A stretch of 64,000 nt of DNA from Pseudidiomarina homiensis (GTDB lineage Bacteria; Pseudomonadota; Gammaproteobacteria; Enterobacterales; Alteromonadaceae): contig NZ_PIPX01000001.1 of NCBI RefSeq assembly GCF_003987225.1, positions 1,674,001 to 1,738,000 of the forward strand. The letters run 5' to 3'. Made by a program: the position numbers and the translations under genes. Of this stretch, positions 12,641 to 17,639 are shown one piece after another. The notes beneath the pieces were generated by a model. It saw only the letters and a list, made by a program, of their open reading frames with translations, did no database searches and had not been told where the DNA came from. Position 1 is the stretch's first letter; every line of letters begins with the position of its first letter.

Positions 12641-12668
12641 GGAATATGCCTCGGTTTGAATCGTTACC
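12641..12668 (+). promoter_or_regulatory. Putative ECF promoter (copy 1) upstream of the acidic secreted protein gene
   Basis: GGAATA (12641-12646), 15 bases, CGTTACC (12662-12668), about 35 bases before the start codon at 12703. The same pattern, GGAATW-N15-CGTTAYC, lies upstream of the S8 protease gene and of the sigma-factor operon in this locus. Confidence 0.65.
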
Positions 12669-12702
12669 TTGATGTCTTTGCGACAAAACAGGAGAAATCA
12701 TT

Positions 12703-13299
12703 ATGAAAACGATCATCAAACCAAGTGTTATCGCATTATCATTAGCCCTAACTTCAACCGCAGCTATGGCCGATATAGGTTCAGCTTCGGTGAACGCCCA
12801 AGCTTCGGCTTCGGCTTCAACCTCAACGGAGCAGTCTGCTGCAATTGAAAACCAGAACGGCCAATCAACTAATACATCTGCACAAGCAAATACTTCAGCA
12901 GACGTTGAAGCTGATGCTTCTGTGCAAGCTGAAGGCCAAACTGAGCAACCGACTGACGACAGTGAAGAAAGCTCAAACGACGCAGACCCGGCGGAAAATG
13001 AAGCCGAAATGCCCGAAGCCGAGCTACCTGACACTGAAGTGGCAACCAACGCCCTCACGTCAGCTACAGCTGAGTCAGTAGCCTCAGCCGAAGCAGCGCT
13101 GAACGACGTTAACTCTGCTGTGAATGGCAGTGTCGATACGGTGGTATCCACCGCTGTGAGCACAGCATCTGAAGCTGCAGTGCAAGATGCTGTCGGCGAA
13201 ACGGTGGAGAGTACGGTCGATACTGCAGTGGAAACCGCAGTGGAATCTACGGTCGATGCAACAGTTCGCGATAGCATTCGCGGCGGCTTGGGCATTTAA
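12703..13299 (+). CDS. Secreted acidic low-complexity protein, function unknown
   Basis: A 198-residue protein with a clear signal peptide (MKTIIKPSVIALSLALTSTAAMA|DIGS). The mature part is built almost only from A, S, T, V, E, D, N, Q and G: I see no Cys, His, Phe, Tyr, Trp or Lys, and only two Arg near the C-terminus. Residues about 85-120 are strongly acidic, and residues about 145-190 have a Val/Thr/Glu/Ser repeat (VSTAV, VESTVDTAVETAV). It ends RDSIRGGLGI. It is predicted disordered; no family recognised. AGGAG stands 8 bases before the ATG. Position beside a beta-barrel protein and an S8 protease, with the same promoter motif, suggests it is a component or substrate of that system (inference). 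Confidence 0.75.
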   Translation: MKTIIKPSVIALSLALTSTAAMADIGSASVNAQASASASTSTEQSAAIENQNGQSTNTSAQANTSADVEADASVQAEGQTEQPTDDSEESSNDADPAENEAEMPEAELPDTEVATNALTSATAESVASAEAALNDVNSAVNGSVDTVVSTAVSTASEAAVQDAVGETVESTVDTAVETAVESTVDATVRDSIRGGLGI

Positions 13300-13321
13300 G
13301 CTAACGCGCGACTTAAACCAC

Positions 13322-13349
13322 GCAGCCGGCGCTCTGTCGGCTGCTTTTT
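13322..13349 (+). terminator. Intrinsic terminator or attenuator between the acidic-protein and beta-barrel genes
   Basis: GCAGCCG (13322-13328) pairs with CGGCTGC (13338-13344) and is followed by five T. As the next gene starts only 17 bases later with no evident promoter of its own, this may be a partial terminator that sets a ratio between an abundant small secreted protein and a rarer outer-membrane partner. Confidence 0.75.
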
Positions 13350-13365
13350 CTCTGCGGAGGTTATT

Positions 13366-14286
13366 ATGAAATCGACACAGATCACCCTATCTAGCTGCAG
13401 CCTCATGCTCGCATTGTCGGCCGCAGCACCCATACAAGCCAAAGACGATGCTTTCGATTGGTCGGGTAAACTGCAAGCAGGCTACCAGTACGACAGCAAC
13501 GTAAATATTCGAGAACTTGACCAAAATACCGAACGTTCAGACCAAGCCCTTGTGACAGAAGCTCAGCTTGGCTTGCAATGGCGCCCATGGCGCAAGCTTG
13601 AAGTCAAAGCAGGTGCGCAGCACAGCGATTACGCCTATCAAGAATTCACCGCGTTCGATCTGGCAATCACCACGTTGAATGGCGAAGTAAGCTACGATTT
13701 CGACGTGGTCAAAATCGGCATGAGCCGACACGACGCCGATGCCAAACTCGCCAGTTCTGACTTTCTTGATTACCAACTCGATACGCTTTACCTGTCGCGC
13801 CTTTGGGGCAAACAATGGTTTACTCGCTTCGCTTACGAAGACACCGACAAGCAGTTTGCGAATTTGAGCGAACGTAACGCGACCGCCAAGGCCTATAGCG
13901 GAGATGTTTACTGGTTCACGCCATCAGCAAAAAGCTTTATCACGCTGGGCTATACCGATCACGATGAAACCGCCGATGACCCGCAGTTCAGTTATAACGG
14001 TTCGACCCTTCGCGTACGTTGGCAAACGCGCGCACCTTTGTGGGGCAATGAGCATACTTGGCAGCTGGGCTGGCAGTTGGAAAACCGCGACTATGTGCAG
14101 CCAATGCCCGATCGAAATAGTGCGCGCGACGAGCAACGTCAGTCTGTGCAGGCGAAGTGGCAGATCCCATTAAGCGAGGCGTTTCGATTCACTCCTAAAC
14201 TCGAGTACGTCGACAACCAGTCGAACTTCACTGACGTTGACTACCAGGAAACAACGGCGAGCTTGAACTTCAGTGTTCACTTTTAG
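13366..14286 (+). CDS. Outer-membrane beta-barrel protein
   Basis: A 306-residue protein with a signal peptide (ending PIQA|KDDAF) and alternating amphipathic strands to a C-terminal Phe (LNFSVHF), the outer-membrane insertion signature. The first strand KLQAGYQYDSNVNI resembles the opening of barrels of surface-lipoprotein-assembly-modifier (DUF560-like) and related TPR-barrel proteins, but there is no TPR part here. About 12-14 strands seem likely. GGAGG stands 7 bases before the ATG. It follows the acidic secreted protein gene by 66 bases across a terminator-like hairpin, and it converges on the S8 protease gene (7-base gap). Role as channel or surface anchor is inference. Confidence 0.75.
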   Translation: MKSTQITLSSCSLMLALSAAAPIQAKDDAFDWSGKLQAGYQYDSNVNIRELDQNTERSDQALVTEAQLGLQWRPWRKLEVKAGAQHSDYAYQEFTAFDLAITTLNGEVSYDFDVVKIGMSRHDADAKLASSDFLDYQLDTLYLSRLWGKQWFTRFAYEDTDKQFANLSERNATAKAYSGDVYWFTPSAKSFITLGYTDHDETADDPQFSYNGSTLRVRWQTRAPLWGNEHTWQLGWQLENRDYVQPMPDRNSARDEQRQSVQAKWQIPLSEAFRFTPKLEYVDNQSNFTDVDYQETTASLNFSVHF

Positions 14287-14293
14287 GCCTACC

Positions 14294-15646
14294 TTATTCA
14301 AGGTAAATAAGGCCATGACCAAAAACGCTGTCGTGGCCTGTCTCGCCTAAATCTTCAGCGGAACCTTGCAAAAAGCTTCTTAGCGCAGCTAAAGATGCGC
14401 CAGAATTGTTTTCCAACCAGCACGCTGCGGCAGCCGCCACGACTGGCGCGGCCATTGAGGTGCCACTTTCAAAGCCAGTATTGCCATCGCGCCGAGCCGT
14501 GGTGATACGCACACCTAGGCTCGCAAACTCAATGTAATCACCTTGATTGGCCCAACGATAAATAGCGTGATCCGCAGCAACTGCTGTTACAGCAATAACA
14601 TCTTCATAGGCCGCAGGGTACACGGCTGGGGCAAGCGGGCCGTTATTGCCGGCAGCGGCAACCAAAACAATCCCCTGGTTTGCTAACTGTTTCACTGCTT
14701 GCGCAAATAATGGGCTGTGTGGCCCAGTTAGCGAAACGTTGATCACTTTTACCTGTGCTTCGGCAAGCCAGTTCAACGCCTCGAGCAGCGGCATCAGCGC
14801 CGCCCCCTGATGCAGCGCATTTTGACGATAAAAAACCGCGCCATTATACAAGCGTGCATTGGGTAATAAGCTGGCATACTTAGCAGAACGTCCCACCAGT
14901 AAACCCGCCACTGCAGTACCGTGCGCCAGCGGCTGCTCTAAGCGAGCGTCGGTAAAAGTCTTTTGGGTAATAGGCTGATGCGCAAATGCTGCATGCTCGG
15001 TCATGATTTTAGTGTCCACCATGCCTATTTTTACTTCTGCATCACACCATTTCGTTTGCTGTAGTTGTGCGTCAGAATGGCTTGGCTGAGCATCTTCTCC
15101 GGAAGCTTGTGCGCGATAGACAAAATGTCGACTCAAGCTTCCGTGGCTTTGCGCCGGCAAATGTTGTTCGAGTTGCTCGCGCGAGTCCAGTTGCTCAGGC
15201 ACGCGAAAACGCAGCAGCGTCATCCCCAGCGCCGACAACTCTTTCTCAGCCACTACGTTTGCACCCAGCGCTCGGAGTCTGGTTTGTGTGTCAGAGGTTG
15301 CTAGCACCAACCACTCACGCTCGATAACGGGGTCGCCGTTAGGCAGTGTCACCTCAACGAATAGCGCTTCACCCGTCGTTGACTGCAGCGTCCGTCGCGC
15401 CGTGTCTTCGGCTAACTCAACAACATCAACCACATCGGCGAGCTCAGCATCTAGCCTGGCATCTTCCAGCAGGCGCTCTTGCAAACGCTGCTCAACCTGT
15501 TGACGCACCTGCTCCACGGGTTTCACAACGTCGCGTAACGGATCTTGCAGAACCTGCGCACCTGCTGGCACAGCCAACGTGGTAGCCATACCAAAAGTGA
15601 TAAGTAAGCTGTGCGCGAAACCGCGTCGATTCGAATTTTTAACCAT
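14294..15646 (-). CDS. Secreted subtilisin-like serine protease (S8)
   Basis: A 450-residue S8 peptidase. A signal peptide (ending VPAGA|QVLQ) precedes a charged coiled-coil-like stretch (about 35-85) and a probable propeptide-like domain (about 90-180). The catalytic domain shows Asp211 (IGMVDTKI), His242 (LAHGTAVAGLLVG), oxyanion Asn334 (AAAGNNGP) and Ser397 (SGTSMAAP), so it should be active. Cys201 and Cys409 could form a disulphide. There is no C-terminal P or autotransporter domain; the protein ends right after the fold. AAGG precedes the ATG. It is divergent from the ECF sigma operon and has a matching promoter motif, so it is probably made under that sigma factor's control. Confidence 0.9.
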   Translation of the reverse strand: MVKNSNRRGFAHSLLITFGMATTLAVPAGAQVLQDPLRDVVKPVEQVRQQVEQRLQERLLEDARLDAELADVVDVVELAEDTARRTLQSTTGEALFVEVTLPNGDPVIEREWLVLATSDTQTRLRALGANVVAEKELSALGMTLLRFRVPEQLDSREQLEQHLPAQSHGSLSRHFVYRAQASGEDAQPSHSDAQLQQTKWCDAEVKIGMVDTKIMTEHAAFAHQPITQKTFTDARLEQPLAHGTAVAGLLVGRSAKYASLLPNARLYNGAVFYRQNALHQGAALMPLLEALNWLAEAQVKVINVSLTGPHSPLFAQAVKQLANQGIVLVAAAGNNGPLAPAVYPAAYEDVIAVTAVAADHAIYRWANQGDYIEFASLGVRITTARRDGNTGFESGTSMAAPVVAAAAACWLENNSGASLAALRSFLQGSAEDLGETGHDSVFGHGLIYLE

Positions 15647-15691
15647 GAAACACCTTCACAACTTTAACTCTTTTTTACCTATGCGTAGGGA

Positions 15692-15719
15692 GATAACGTG
15701 CTGACTGCAAAAAAATTCC
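15692..15719 (-). promoter_or_regulatory. Putative ECF promoter (copy 2) for the S8 protease
   Basis: Read on the minus strand: GGAATT (15719-15714), 15 bases, CGTTATC (15698-15692), about 46 bases before the protease start. Same spacing and consensus as the two plus-strand copies. Confidence 0.65.
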
Positions 15720-15721
15720 GT

Positions 15722-15768
15722 CTATGCTGGAATAAGTATTTCGCTGAAACGTTATCACCATAGCATAG
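15722..15768. repeat. 7-bp inverted repeat flanking the sigma-operon promoter
   Basis: CTATGCT (15722-15728) and AGCATAG (15762-15768) are perfect inverted copies 33 bases apart. They bracket the plus-strand promoter; the right half overlaps the expected transcription start. It could be an operator for an additional regulator. Confidence 0.5.
15729..15756 (+). promoter_or_regulatory. Putative ECF promoter (copy 3) for the sigma/anti-sigma operon
   Basis: GGAATA (15729-15734), 15 bases, CGTTATC (15750-15756), about 58 bases before the sigma-factor ATG. The -35 elements of this promoter and of the protease promoter stand back to back, only 9 bases apart. This is the arrangement expected of an autoregulated ECF gene. 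Confidence 0.65.
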
Positions 15769-15814: not shown

Positions 15815-16345
15815 ATGACGACCACAGTCTCATTAAAAAAACAGTTACACGAACTGCTACCCGCATTGCGTCGGTTTGCTATTTCGCTGTGCGGGAATGT
15901 GGCCGACGCGGATGATTTATTGCAATCAACCTTAGAACGCTTATTGAGCAAAGGCATTCCCGAGCAGGTCGAGATCATGCCATGGGCTTTTAAGGTTTGT
16001 CGCAACTTGTGGCTAGACGAGCATCGAGCGCGACAGGTGCGAGAGAAAGCCACGCAACAACCCGAGCTGCAAGAAGCTACAAGCGAAGCGGTCGACACCC
16101 AAGTCAGTGATCAGCTTGAGCTGCAGGATATTAATGCCGCATTGCACCAACTACCACATGAGCAGCGCACGATTATCGCGCTCGTTGCCGTGCAAGGCTT
16201 AAGTTACCGTGAAGCCGCTGCCATTATTGGCGTTCCCACTGGAACTATCATGAGTAGGCTTGCGCGTGCCCGAAGCAAACTAGCGGAAGTTATGGGTCTC
16301 GCCACCGATGCTTTCAGCCACCAACAATCAGGAGCTTCGTCATGA
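15815..16345 (+). CDS. ECF sigma factor (sigma-70 family)
   Basis: A 176-residue ECF sigma factor. Region 2 (residues about 12-80) has RFAISLCGNVADADDLLQSTLERLL and PWAFKVCRNLWLDEHRAR; region 4 (about 115-165) has ALHQLPHEQRTIIALVAVQGLSYREAAAIIGVPTGTIMSRLARARSKL, with the helix-turn-helix that reads the -35 element. GAGGG at 15804-15808 supports ATG 15815 rather than TTG 15788. The stop overlaps the anti-sigma start (ATGA). Likely directs RNA polymerase to the GGAATW-N15-CGTTAYC promoters at its own operon, the divergent S8 protease and the acidic protein gene (inference from shared motif). Confidence 0.9.
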   Translation: MTTTVSLKKQLHELLPALRRFAISLCGNVADADDLLQSTLERLLSKGIPEQVEIMPWAFKVCRNLWLDEHRARQVREKATQQPELQEATSEAVDTQVSDQLELQDINAALHQLPHEQRTIIALVAVQGLSYREAAAIIGVPTGTIMSRLARARSKLAEVMGLATDAFSHQQSGASS

Positions 16346-17109
16346 GCATTAACACTGAAAAATTATCTGCATTTTTCGACAACGAGCTCCCTGCTGAAGA
16401 GATGGAAGAAGTTCGTCAACTTCTTACACAAGACGAGAACGCAGCCGCACGACTGGCCGCGTTGGTCATGGTCGATGAACGACTACGCCAACATACCGAC
16501 CAACAAAGCCAAACACCGGTGCCGGATAAAATTACGCAGATGCTGACCGAGGATGATGAGCCAGCGCGAGTTGTCTCCGGCCCATGGCAAACCATGCGGC
16601 AATTTGCGCAACGTCAGGTGGCGCTGGCAGCAAGTGTGGCGATGGTGATTGGTATTAGCGCTGGCATGTGGTTTAACGACCATGCCATGAGCACCGCAGG
16701 GAGCCAGCTCGCACAAGCCATTGATCAAGTGCTTGAAAATAAAGCCAGCGGACATACCTATACTCTTAATACAGCGGTAGCCATGACCCCACAACTTACG
16801 TTTAAGAATCACATGGGGGATTACTGCCGACATTATGAGCTAAACAATGAGCAAGCCGGCTATACCACGACAGCGATTCATTGCCGCAGTGACGGCAGCT
16901 GGAAACCGGTTGCCGAGGCGATAAGCTACACTAATCCGGTAAGCGGAAGTTATACTACTGCCTCAGGCCAACAGATGCTCGACACAGTTTTGGATGCGGT
17001 CATGGCCACCGCACCTTTTTCTAAAGCAACCGAAGACGCTGCCCTGAATTCGCATTGGCGCGTTGATGCACCAGCGACGGAAGCAAATGAAGCAGCAATG
17101 GAGGAATAG
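16342..17109 (+). CDS. Membrane anti-sigma factor
   Basis: A 255-residue single-pass membrane protein. The cytoplasmic N-terminus (KLSAFFDNELPAEEMEEVRQLLTQDENAAARLAALVMVDERLR) has the FxDxEL...AEEM pattern of RseA-like anti-sigma domains and lacks the HxxxCxxC zinc motif. A hydrophobic segment lies around residues 92-110 (VALAASVAMVIGISAGMWF), and the remaining 145 residues are periplasmic, with two Cys (YCRHYEL, IHCRSDG) and TTASGQQMLDTVLDAVMA. It is translationally coupled to the sigma gene by a 4-base overlap. Release of the sigma factor by a periplasmic signal, perhaps proteolysis, is inference. Confidence 0.85.
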   Translation: MSINTEKLSAFFDNELPAEEMEEVRQLLTQDENAAARLAALVMVDERLRQHTDQQSQTPVPDKITQMLTEDDEPARVVSGPWQTMRQFAQRQVALAASVAMVIGISAGMWFNDHAMSTAGSQLAQAIDQVLENKASGHTYTLNTAVAMTPQLTFKNHMGDYCRHYELNNEQAGYTTTAIHCRSDGSWKPVAEAISYTNPVSGSYTTASGQQMLDTVLDAVMATAPFSKATEDAALNSHWRVDAPATEANEAAMEE

Positions 17110-17111
17110 CT

Positions 17112-17639
17112 ATGAATATCATCAAACTTATGTCAATTGCACTCGTTTCAGTAGTACTCGCGGCGTGTAGTTCGCAACCCGACTACCGCGCTGCAGAAGG
17201 TTCCAGCGGCTATGGCTACGATGCGACTCAGCTGACGGATACTCAGTATCGGGTCACCTTTAAAGCGCGCGGTTCTGACGCCGACAAAGCAATGGATTAT
17301 GCGCTGTTACGCGCGGCCGAGGTAACCCTGCAAAACGGCTACGACTGGTTTGTCGTAACGCACCGTGAAACGCTCATCGATAACGAGCGCGTTGAACCCA
17401 GCAGCACCCTGCGCTATGCCGATTCACGAGATGTCGTCACCCGCTGCGGCTTGGTGTCATGCACCACAACCTCTTATCCACGCAGTACTTTCAGCGCTGG
17501 CGTCCACATTGGCGGGGATCGTTCACAAGACATCAAAAGTATTCTCGAGATTAAACTTGGCAAAGGTGTACGCCCCGATACCGATGCGAGCTTCGATGCA
17601 CTCGAAGTTAGACAACATTTGAGTCCAAAAGAAGACTAA
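17112..17639 (+). CDS. CC0125/CC1285-type lipoprotein
   Basis: A 175-residue lipoprotein: signal peptide with lipobox LAAC and lipidated Cys19. The mature part, YGYDATQLTDTQYRVTFKARGSDADKAMDYALLRAAEVTLQNGYDWFVVTHRE, is the conserved core of the CC0125/CC1285 lipoprotein family of unknown function. Two further Cys (TRCGLVSCTTT) could form a disulphide. It starts 2 bases after the anti-sigma stop, so it is the third gene of the sigma operon. It could act as an envelope sensor or as a part of the exported system. Confidence 0.8.
   Translation: MNIIKLMSIALVSVVLAACSSQPDYRAAEGSSGYGYDATQLTDTQYRVTFKARGSDADKAMDYALLRAAEVTLQNGYDWFVVTHRETLIDNERVEPSSTLRYADSRDVVTRCGLVSCTTTSYPRSTFSAGVHIGGDRSQDIKSILEIKLGKGVRPDTDASFDALEVRQHLSPKED

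Follow-up and report, generated by a model that had tools for sequence, protein, structure and literature searches.

The DNA studied here, referred to as the window, is a stretch of 64,000 nucleotides from Pseudidiomarina homiensis (NZ_PIPX01000001.1, positions 1,674,001-1,738,000, forward strand), a bacterium with a genome of 2.61 Mb. It contains a locus built around a gene for an extracytoplasmic function (ECF) sigma factor, with the gene order acidic protein (+), β-barrel (+), S8 protease (-), sigma factor (+), anti-sigma factor (+), and lipoprotein (+). Three promoter-like sites are located at this locus, one before the acidic-protein/barrel unit, another before the protease gene, and a third before the sigma operon.

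The sigma gene (15815..16345, +) codes for a protein of 176 residues that matches the Pfam domains Sigma70_r2 (34.5 bits, cut-off 24) and Sigma70_r4_2 (54.2 bits, cut-off 25.7). It is a small protein with regions 2 and 4 only, the composition that defines ECF sigma factors. The following gene (16342..17109, +) encodes a putative membrane anti-sigma factor of 255 residues, which is composed of an RseA_N-like cytoplasmic part (a marginal match, 25.2 bits with a cut-off of 24), one membrane segment recognized by eye, and an extracytoplasmic domain. Two cysteines of this domain, C162 and C181, are invariant in an alignment of 25 sequences, and the pair is a possible disulfide sensor. The third gene of the operon (17112..17639, +) codes for a 175-residue lipoprotein of the CC0125/CC1285 family (NCBIfam NF047637, 148.3 bits, cut-off 40).

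The S8 (subtilisin-like) protease gene (14294..15646, -) specifies 450 residues, with a Pfam PF00082 match of 104.6 bits. Its product consists of a signal peptide (judged by eye), an N-terminal helix, a propeptide-like domain and the subtilase domain; the structural model has a predicted local distance difference test score (pLDDT) of 85.7, and pro-subtilisins are its best fold matches. The Asp-His-Ser triad (D211, H242, S397) is invariant across 30 sequences. The barrel gene (13366..14286, +) encodes an outer-membrane protein of 306 residues with 14 predicted strands (AlphaFold2 model; pLDDT 91.5, predicted template modelling score 0.83). The barrel reaches no Pfam family at cut-off and is not named by NCBIfam; the best solved-structure matches that Foldseek gives for it are OmpG, CymA and similar porins, with template modelling (TM) scores of 0.54-0.59 and 8-12% identity. 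The open reading frame at 12703..13299 (+) codes for an acidic, putatively secreted protein of 198 residues (signal peptide judged by eye), which has no Pfam match and no NCBIfam name. It contains a middle region of Ala, Ser, Gln and acidic residues, a C-terminal hydrophobic repeat of period 4 and the terminal motif GGLGI. The lag-4 autocorrelation of V/I/L residues is 0.51-0.54, a value reached by 0/500 and 0/1000 shuffled sequences.

The three sites were first noticed in an inspection of the sequence alone, and all of them match the pattern GGAATW-N15-CGTTAYC exactly at the positions then given: GGAATA-N15-CGTTACC at 12641..12668 (+) before the acidic gene, GGAATT-N15-CGTTATC at 15692..15719 (-) before the S8 gene, and GGAATA-N15-CGTTATC at 15729..15756 (+) before the sigma operon. 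The original prediction placed them about 35-60 bases before start codons; the measured gaps are 34 bases (to 12703), 45 bases (to 15646, minus strand) and 58 bases (to 15815). The rarity that it attributed to the pattern is also borne out. Judged by base composition, the window should contain 0.0076 exact matches and the genome 0.31; the window has three, out of 11 matches with up to two mismatches. The genome scan that it proposed yields five exact matches, namely the three locus sites and two inside long coding frames. Inexact genome matches are background, and only the sigma locus stands out. That the three sites are real, beyond chance, is thus confirmed.

The -35 boxes of the S8 and sigma-operon sites stand back to back, 9 bp apart (window 15692-15756). 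Both divergent sites are present in strict form, as defined below, in 12 loci (the window and 11 relatives), with the -35 boxes 8-9 bp apart in eight of them and 21-37 bp apart in the other four. Since the boxes are so close together, two polymerases may exclude each other, and the divergent promoters may therefore compete.

A survey of 147 genomes of the family detected the sigma gene in 30 (E 1e-20), and a strong barrel match (E 1e-85 or better) in the same 30. Larger stretches were examined for all 29 sigma-bearing relatives, giving 30 loci with the window. For instance, the near relative Pseudidiomarina sp. CB1 carries the locus (L061, same place as L062), the sole one from the sigma search of contigs. 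In 29/29 relative loci the S8 gene lies divergent to sigma on the other strand, and the barrel adjoins the S8/sigma pair in 28; the exception is G085, where the contig stops and a different contig carries the barrel. The anti-sigma factor is detectable in 24/29 relative loci, and the lipoprotein is the third gene of the sigma operon in 22/29 (tblastn).

Conservation of the sites was evaluated with a strict pattern (GGAAT-N16/17-CGTT, at most 250 bases upstream of the gene) and with a relaxed -10 element. A strict site precedes 23/23 stand-alone acidic genes, made up of 22/22 and one more, that of G085 on its second contig. The number 22 results from the removal of two mis-assigned frames from 24 acidic genes assigned by position: the L083 frame is the antisense of a low-complexity stretch, and the L090 frame belongs to a DUF5666 protein. 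The latter is an 849-residue protein with nine DUF5666 repeats (L090:1126-3830, +) that directly precedes the barrel and has a site upstream. Sigma genes show an upstream site in 21/30 loci with the strict and 29/30 with the relaxed pattern. Barrel genes have one in only 2/29 with the strict pattern, namely in L088 and L089, which lack an intervening acidic gene, and in 2/29 with the relaxed one. Among the inner operon genes, a strict site precedes 0/25 anti-sigma and 0/23 lipoprotein genes; with the relaxed pattern the counts are 0/25 and 2/23. Shuffled upstream regions give 0.12% strict and 1.6-2.5% relaxed matches. In 20 distinct acidic-gene sites the spacer holds mostly 0.01-0.5 bits per column, while columns outside the selected pattern are clearly constrained (A6 2.0, A7 1.53, the A after CGTT 1.71 and the final C 1.71 bits).

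The acidic/barrel and sigma promoters are therefore firmly conserved and the S8 promoter is kept in about half of the loci. Loss of the sites in relatives had been named beforehand as the refuting result; the prediction stands for the acidic and sigma genes, the S8 site being the least conserved. Its wider proposal, that the sigma factor controls itself, the protease and the acidic/barrel unit, is supported by the sites kept upstream of the orthologous genes, by their absence before inner genes, and by a mapped promoter in Sinorhizobium described below.

Other genes near the family loci deserve mention. In L085, a GGAATAAA-N16-CGTTAAC site precedes the gene of a DUF4382 lipoprotein, immediately beyond the sigma operon (L085:8049-9124, -). 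Genes of the DUF1800 and DUF1501-like types are divergent to the barrel in L083 (3-3756) and L087 (341-3882, -), the Pfam run covering L083 only, and a GGAATAA-type site precedes the gene in the DUF1800 position of L087.

The reach of the regulon was studied with the pattern GGAATAA-N14/15-CGTTA, using the reversed pattern as a control. The 30 sigma-bearing genomes contain 95 matches, of which 39 fall within the locus or next to it and 56 at other places, versus 70 for the control; a scan of 20 of the 117 genomes lacking the sigma gene gave 22 matches, versus 37 for the reversed pattern. Distal matches in the sigma-bearing genomes are not above the control, so no distal regulon is seen. A genome-wide regulon in P. 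homiensis was likewise sought and not found, the exact sites outside the locus falling inside coding frames. Single distal targets may exist beside the local regulon.

The acidic protein and the protease appear to be connected. Despite strong divergence, the period-4 V/I/L spacing is significant in the last 100 residues of 22/23 family acidic proteins. Seven family loci have no acidic gene beside the barrel (L083 and L085 to L090). In six of these, 325-442 residues precede the catalytic Asp of the S8 protease, versus 188-241 in those 21 relative loci that possess an acidic gene, and Asp plus Glu make up 20-46% of the pre-domain in the six extended proteases versus 7-15% in ordinary ones. The extension has period-4 spacing in four loci (L083, L086, L087, L090); one ordinary protease (L081), among 22 ordinary proteases and that of the window, also passes this test. 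L085 is the only family locus with neither an acidic gene nor an extended protease. The acidic S8 extension in six of the seven loci that lack the acidic gene, periodic in four of them, suggests, as a comparative link, that the acidic repeat and the protease work together. A genome of another order, with no sigma gene at E 1e-25, has a row of three genes (L151:6020-9024, -) for an acidic low-complexity protein, a barrel homologue (E 4e-61) and a trypsin-like protease with a PDZ domain (HtrA-like). This can be read as the trio of the family loci with a protease of another class.

Beyond the family, the sigma gene was found at E 1e-25 in 16 of 369 genomes of the class, 14 of them outside the family. 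In 13 of these 14 loci, which were examined, S8 lies beside sigma in four (L152, L153, L154, L156), and some of the others are cut by contig ends. A GGAATAA-type site is present just upstream of sigma in these four and in L158. In L152 the N-terminus of the S8 protein is long, acidic and rich in DDG, and the neighbourhood contains no barrel; the S8-side site of this locus was left uncounted because it lies more than 300 bases from the annotated start. In Sinorhizobium (L097), an S8 protease is divergent from a sigma gene whose product is 42% identical to that of the window, and the nearest plasmid-borne relative found of the window sigma is an RpoE6-type sigma with 42% identity. The intergenic sequence GGAATAGACCGACGACTCAGCCGTTCTG between S8 and sigma in L097 is, letter for letter, the published RpoE6-dependent promoter of SMa0142 (PMC6180224). 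According to that source, RpoE6 of S. meliloti raises the serine protease SMa0142 from a promoter mapped by rapid amplification of cDNA ends (5'-RACE) as GGAATA-N15-CGTTCTG. RpoE6 belongs to group ECF26, in which the divergent protease is widely conserved and the promoter consensus is GGAATA at -35 and GT at -10; its over-expression raises 40 genes, and its function is described there as undefined, with no role known (PMC6180224).

We consider it very probable that these genes form a self-contained ECF sigma module, in which the sigma factor is autoregulated and its output is local and directed to the envelope. The sigma factor at 15815 would recognize GGAATA-N15/16-CGTTAYC and would transcribe its own operon (sigma, anti-sigma, lipoprotein), the divergent S8 protease and the acidic-protein/barrel unit. 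The assignment of the three sites as promoters is strong, and their use by the window sigma is what we infer from sequence. The membrane anti-sigma factor would keep sigma inactive until an envelope signal frees it, and positive autoregulation together with a co-transcribed anti-sigma factor could produce a self-limiting pulse. The products would form an envelope set, made up of the 14-strand outer-membrane barrel, the secreted acidic period-4 protein and the zymogen-type S8 protease, whose most likely task is the maturation or removal of the acidic protein at the barrel. The sigma release step, the protease substrate and the physiological role are all put forward as what we infer. Tentatively, barrel, acidic protein and protease might even constitute an undescribed system for envelope export or surface display with its own sigma switch, the barrel exporting or anchoring the repeat and the protease maturing it, with the repeat free or fused to the protease and the protease class exchangeable; we regard this as possible and rather doubtful.

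Several observations weigh against the module as proposed. S8 genes have an upstream site in only 15/30 loci with the strict pattern and 17/30 with the relaxed one; the strict count becomes 13/30 once the start codons of the extended proteases are moved, and the strict S8 site is present in 0/6 extended-S8 loci. The period-4 repeat is absent from the extended proteases of L088 and L089 and from the L085 protease, which has no extension. Since the genomes with the strong barrel matches had also supplied the barrel profile, the weight lies on the absence of strong matches in the 117 others, and one sigma-lacking genome (G004) has a weak barrel match (E 3e-12). The mapped promoter of rpoE6 itself (GGACGAT...) has no clear GGAATA match (PMC6180224). 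The site pattern was chosen after the fact, the independent test being supplied by the relatives, and a genome search that tolerates one mismatch yields 31 matches, compared with 25 when the pattern is reversed. Finally, the genome holds 14 matches to sigma region 4, and another sigma factor could read the sites.

The after-the-fact choice and the background level of the one-mismatch matches are what could be said for chance, or for binding sites of a transcription factor instead of promoters. This explanation, already disfavoured, is scarcely credible given the three exact matches found where 0.0076 were expected; the sites are moreover kept at the heads of transcription units across deeply diverged loci and have the same form as the 5'-RACE-mapped promoters (PMC6180224). 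Real promoters could also belong to another sigma factor, for instance an RpoE-like one, the neighbouring ECF factor being merely one of its targets. The 14 region-4 matches give room for this, and GGAA -35 boxes are common to several ECF groups. However, a global sigma would give an excess of distal motifs, which is not seen, and the locus and its own sigma are passed on together as a unit. The CGTT -10 element, in addition, fits mapped ECF26 promoters (PMC6180224), and we judge control by another sigma very unlikely.

A different question is what the protease does. The sites could be real promoters and S8 chiefly a site-1 protease that cuts the anti-sigma factor, in which case the divergent pair would be a feedback loop and the acidic/barrel unit its output. 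S8, sigma and anti-sigma are found together without the barrel in the four outside-family loci with S8 and in Sinorhizobium, so that the association of the protease with the switch is broader than that with the barrel. However, the S8 proteases at the locus have the build of secreted zymogens, and in the L151 row a related barrel/acidic pair is accompanied by an HtrA-like protease and lacks such a sigma, which links proteases to the barrel side. A site-1 role is accordingly rather unlikely, and a protease acting on the envelope output of the sigma module is preferred.

Among known systems, the locus is best read as an ECF26-like autoregulated switch, a placement suggested by promoter form, gene arrangement and likeness to RpoE6. 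It combines GGAATA/GT promoters, a downstream membrane anti-sigma factor with an N-terminal anti-sigma domain, and a divergent serine protease. RpoE6-EcfR6 shares the operon of ECF sigma and membrane anti-sigma, the divergent S8 protease and the GGAATA-N15-CGTT promoters (PMC6180224). However, no barrel, acidic gene or CC0125 lipoprotein was found among the annotated genes beside the L097 locus, and RpoE6 has other targets (PMC6180224), whereas the control exerted by the window sigma seems to extend hardly beyond the adjacent genes. RpoE1 and RpoE4 of S. meliloti, involved in the sulfite response, share the ECF26 group and the -35 GGAATA consensus but control sulfite oxidation genes, and the available parts of PMC6180224 and PMC3511301 do not mention an S8 protease for them.

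The likeness to E. coli RpoE-RseA consists in a membrane anti-sigma factor with an RseA_N-like domain and in envelope products, but the regulon is global there and the output of the window locus appears dedicated and local. The E. coli RpoE promoter has a -10 element different from that of the window sites. The window anti-sigma has no RseB beside it, the third gene being the CC0125 lipoprotein, so the locus was not filed as RpoE/RseA. Porins of the OmpG/CymA type share the 14 strands and are the best Foldseek matches, but the low TM scores and identities given above, and the lack of a Pfam family at cut-off, set the window barrel apart.

Nothing on the window locus was found in the literature on Alteromonadales and Idiomarina, and a 14-strand barrel with a period-4 acidic protein in an ECF26-type regulon was not found in the literature searched, the 2009 and 2021 ECF classification papers and all supplements lying outside it. 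Within that literature, the general arrangement is already known and the barrel/acidic unit is the new part. Compared with the ECF26 systems described so far, the locus is a compact case in which signal, anti-sigma release and output are testable within one 5-kb segment, and the connection of the protease with a 14-strand barrel and an acidic protein of period 4 offers a concrete guess at the purpose of such switches.

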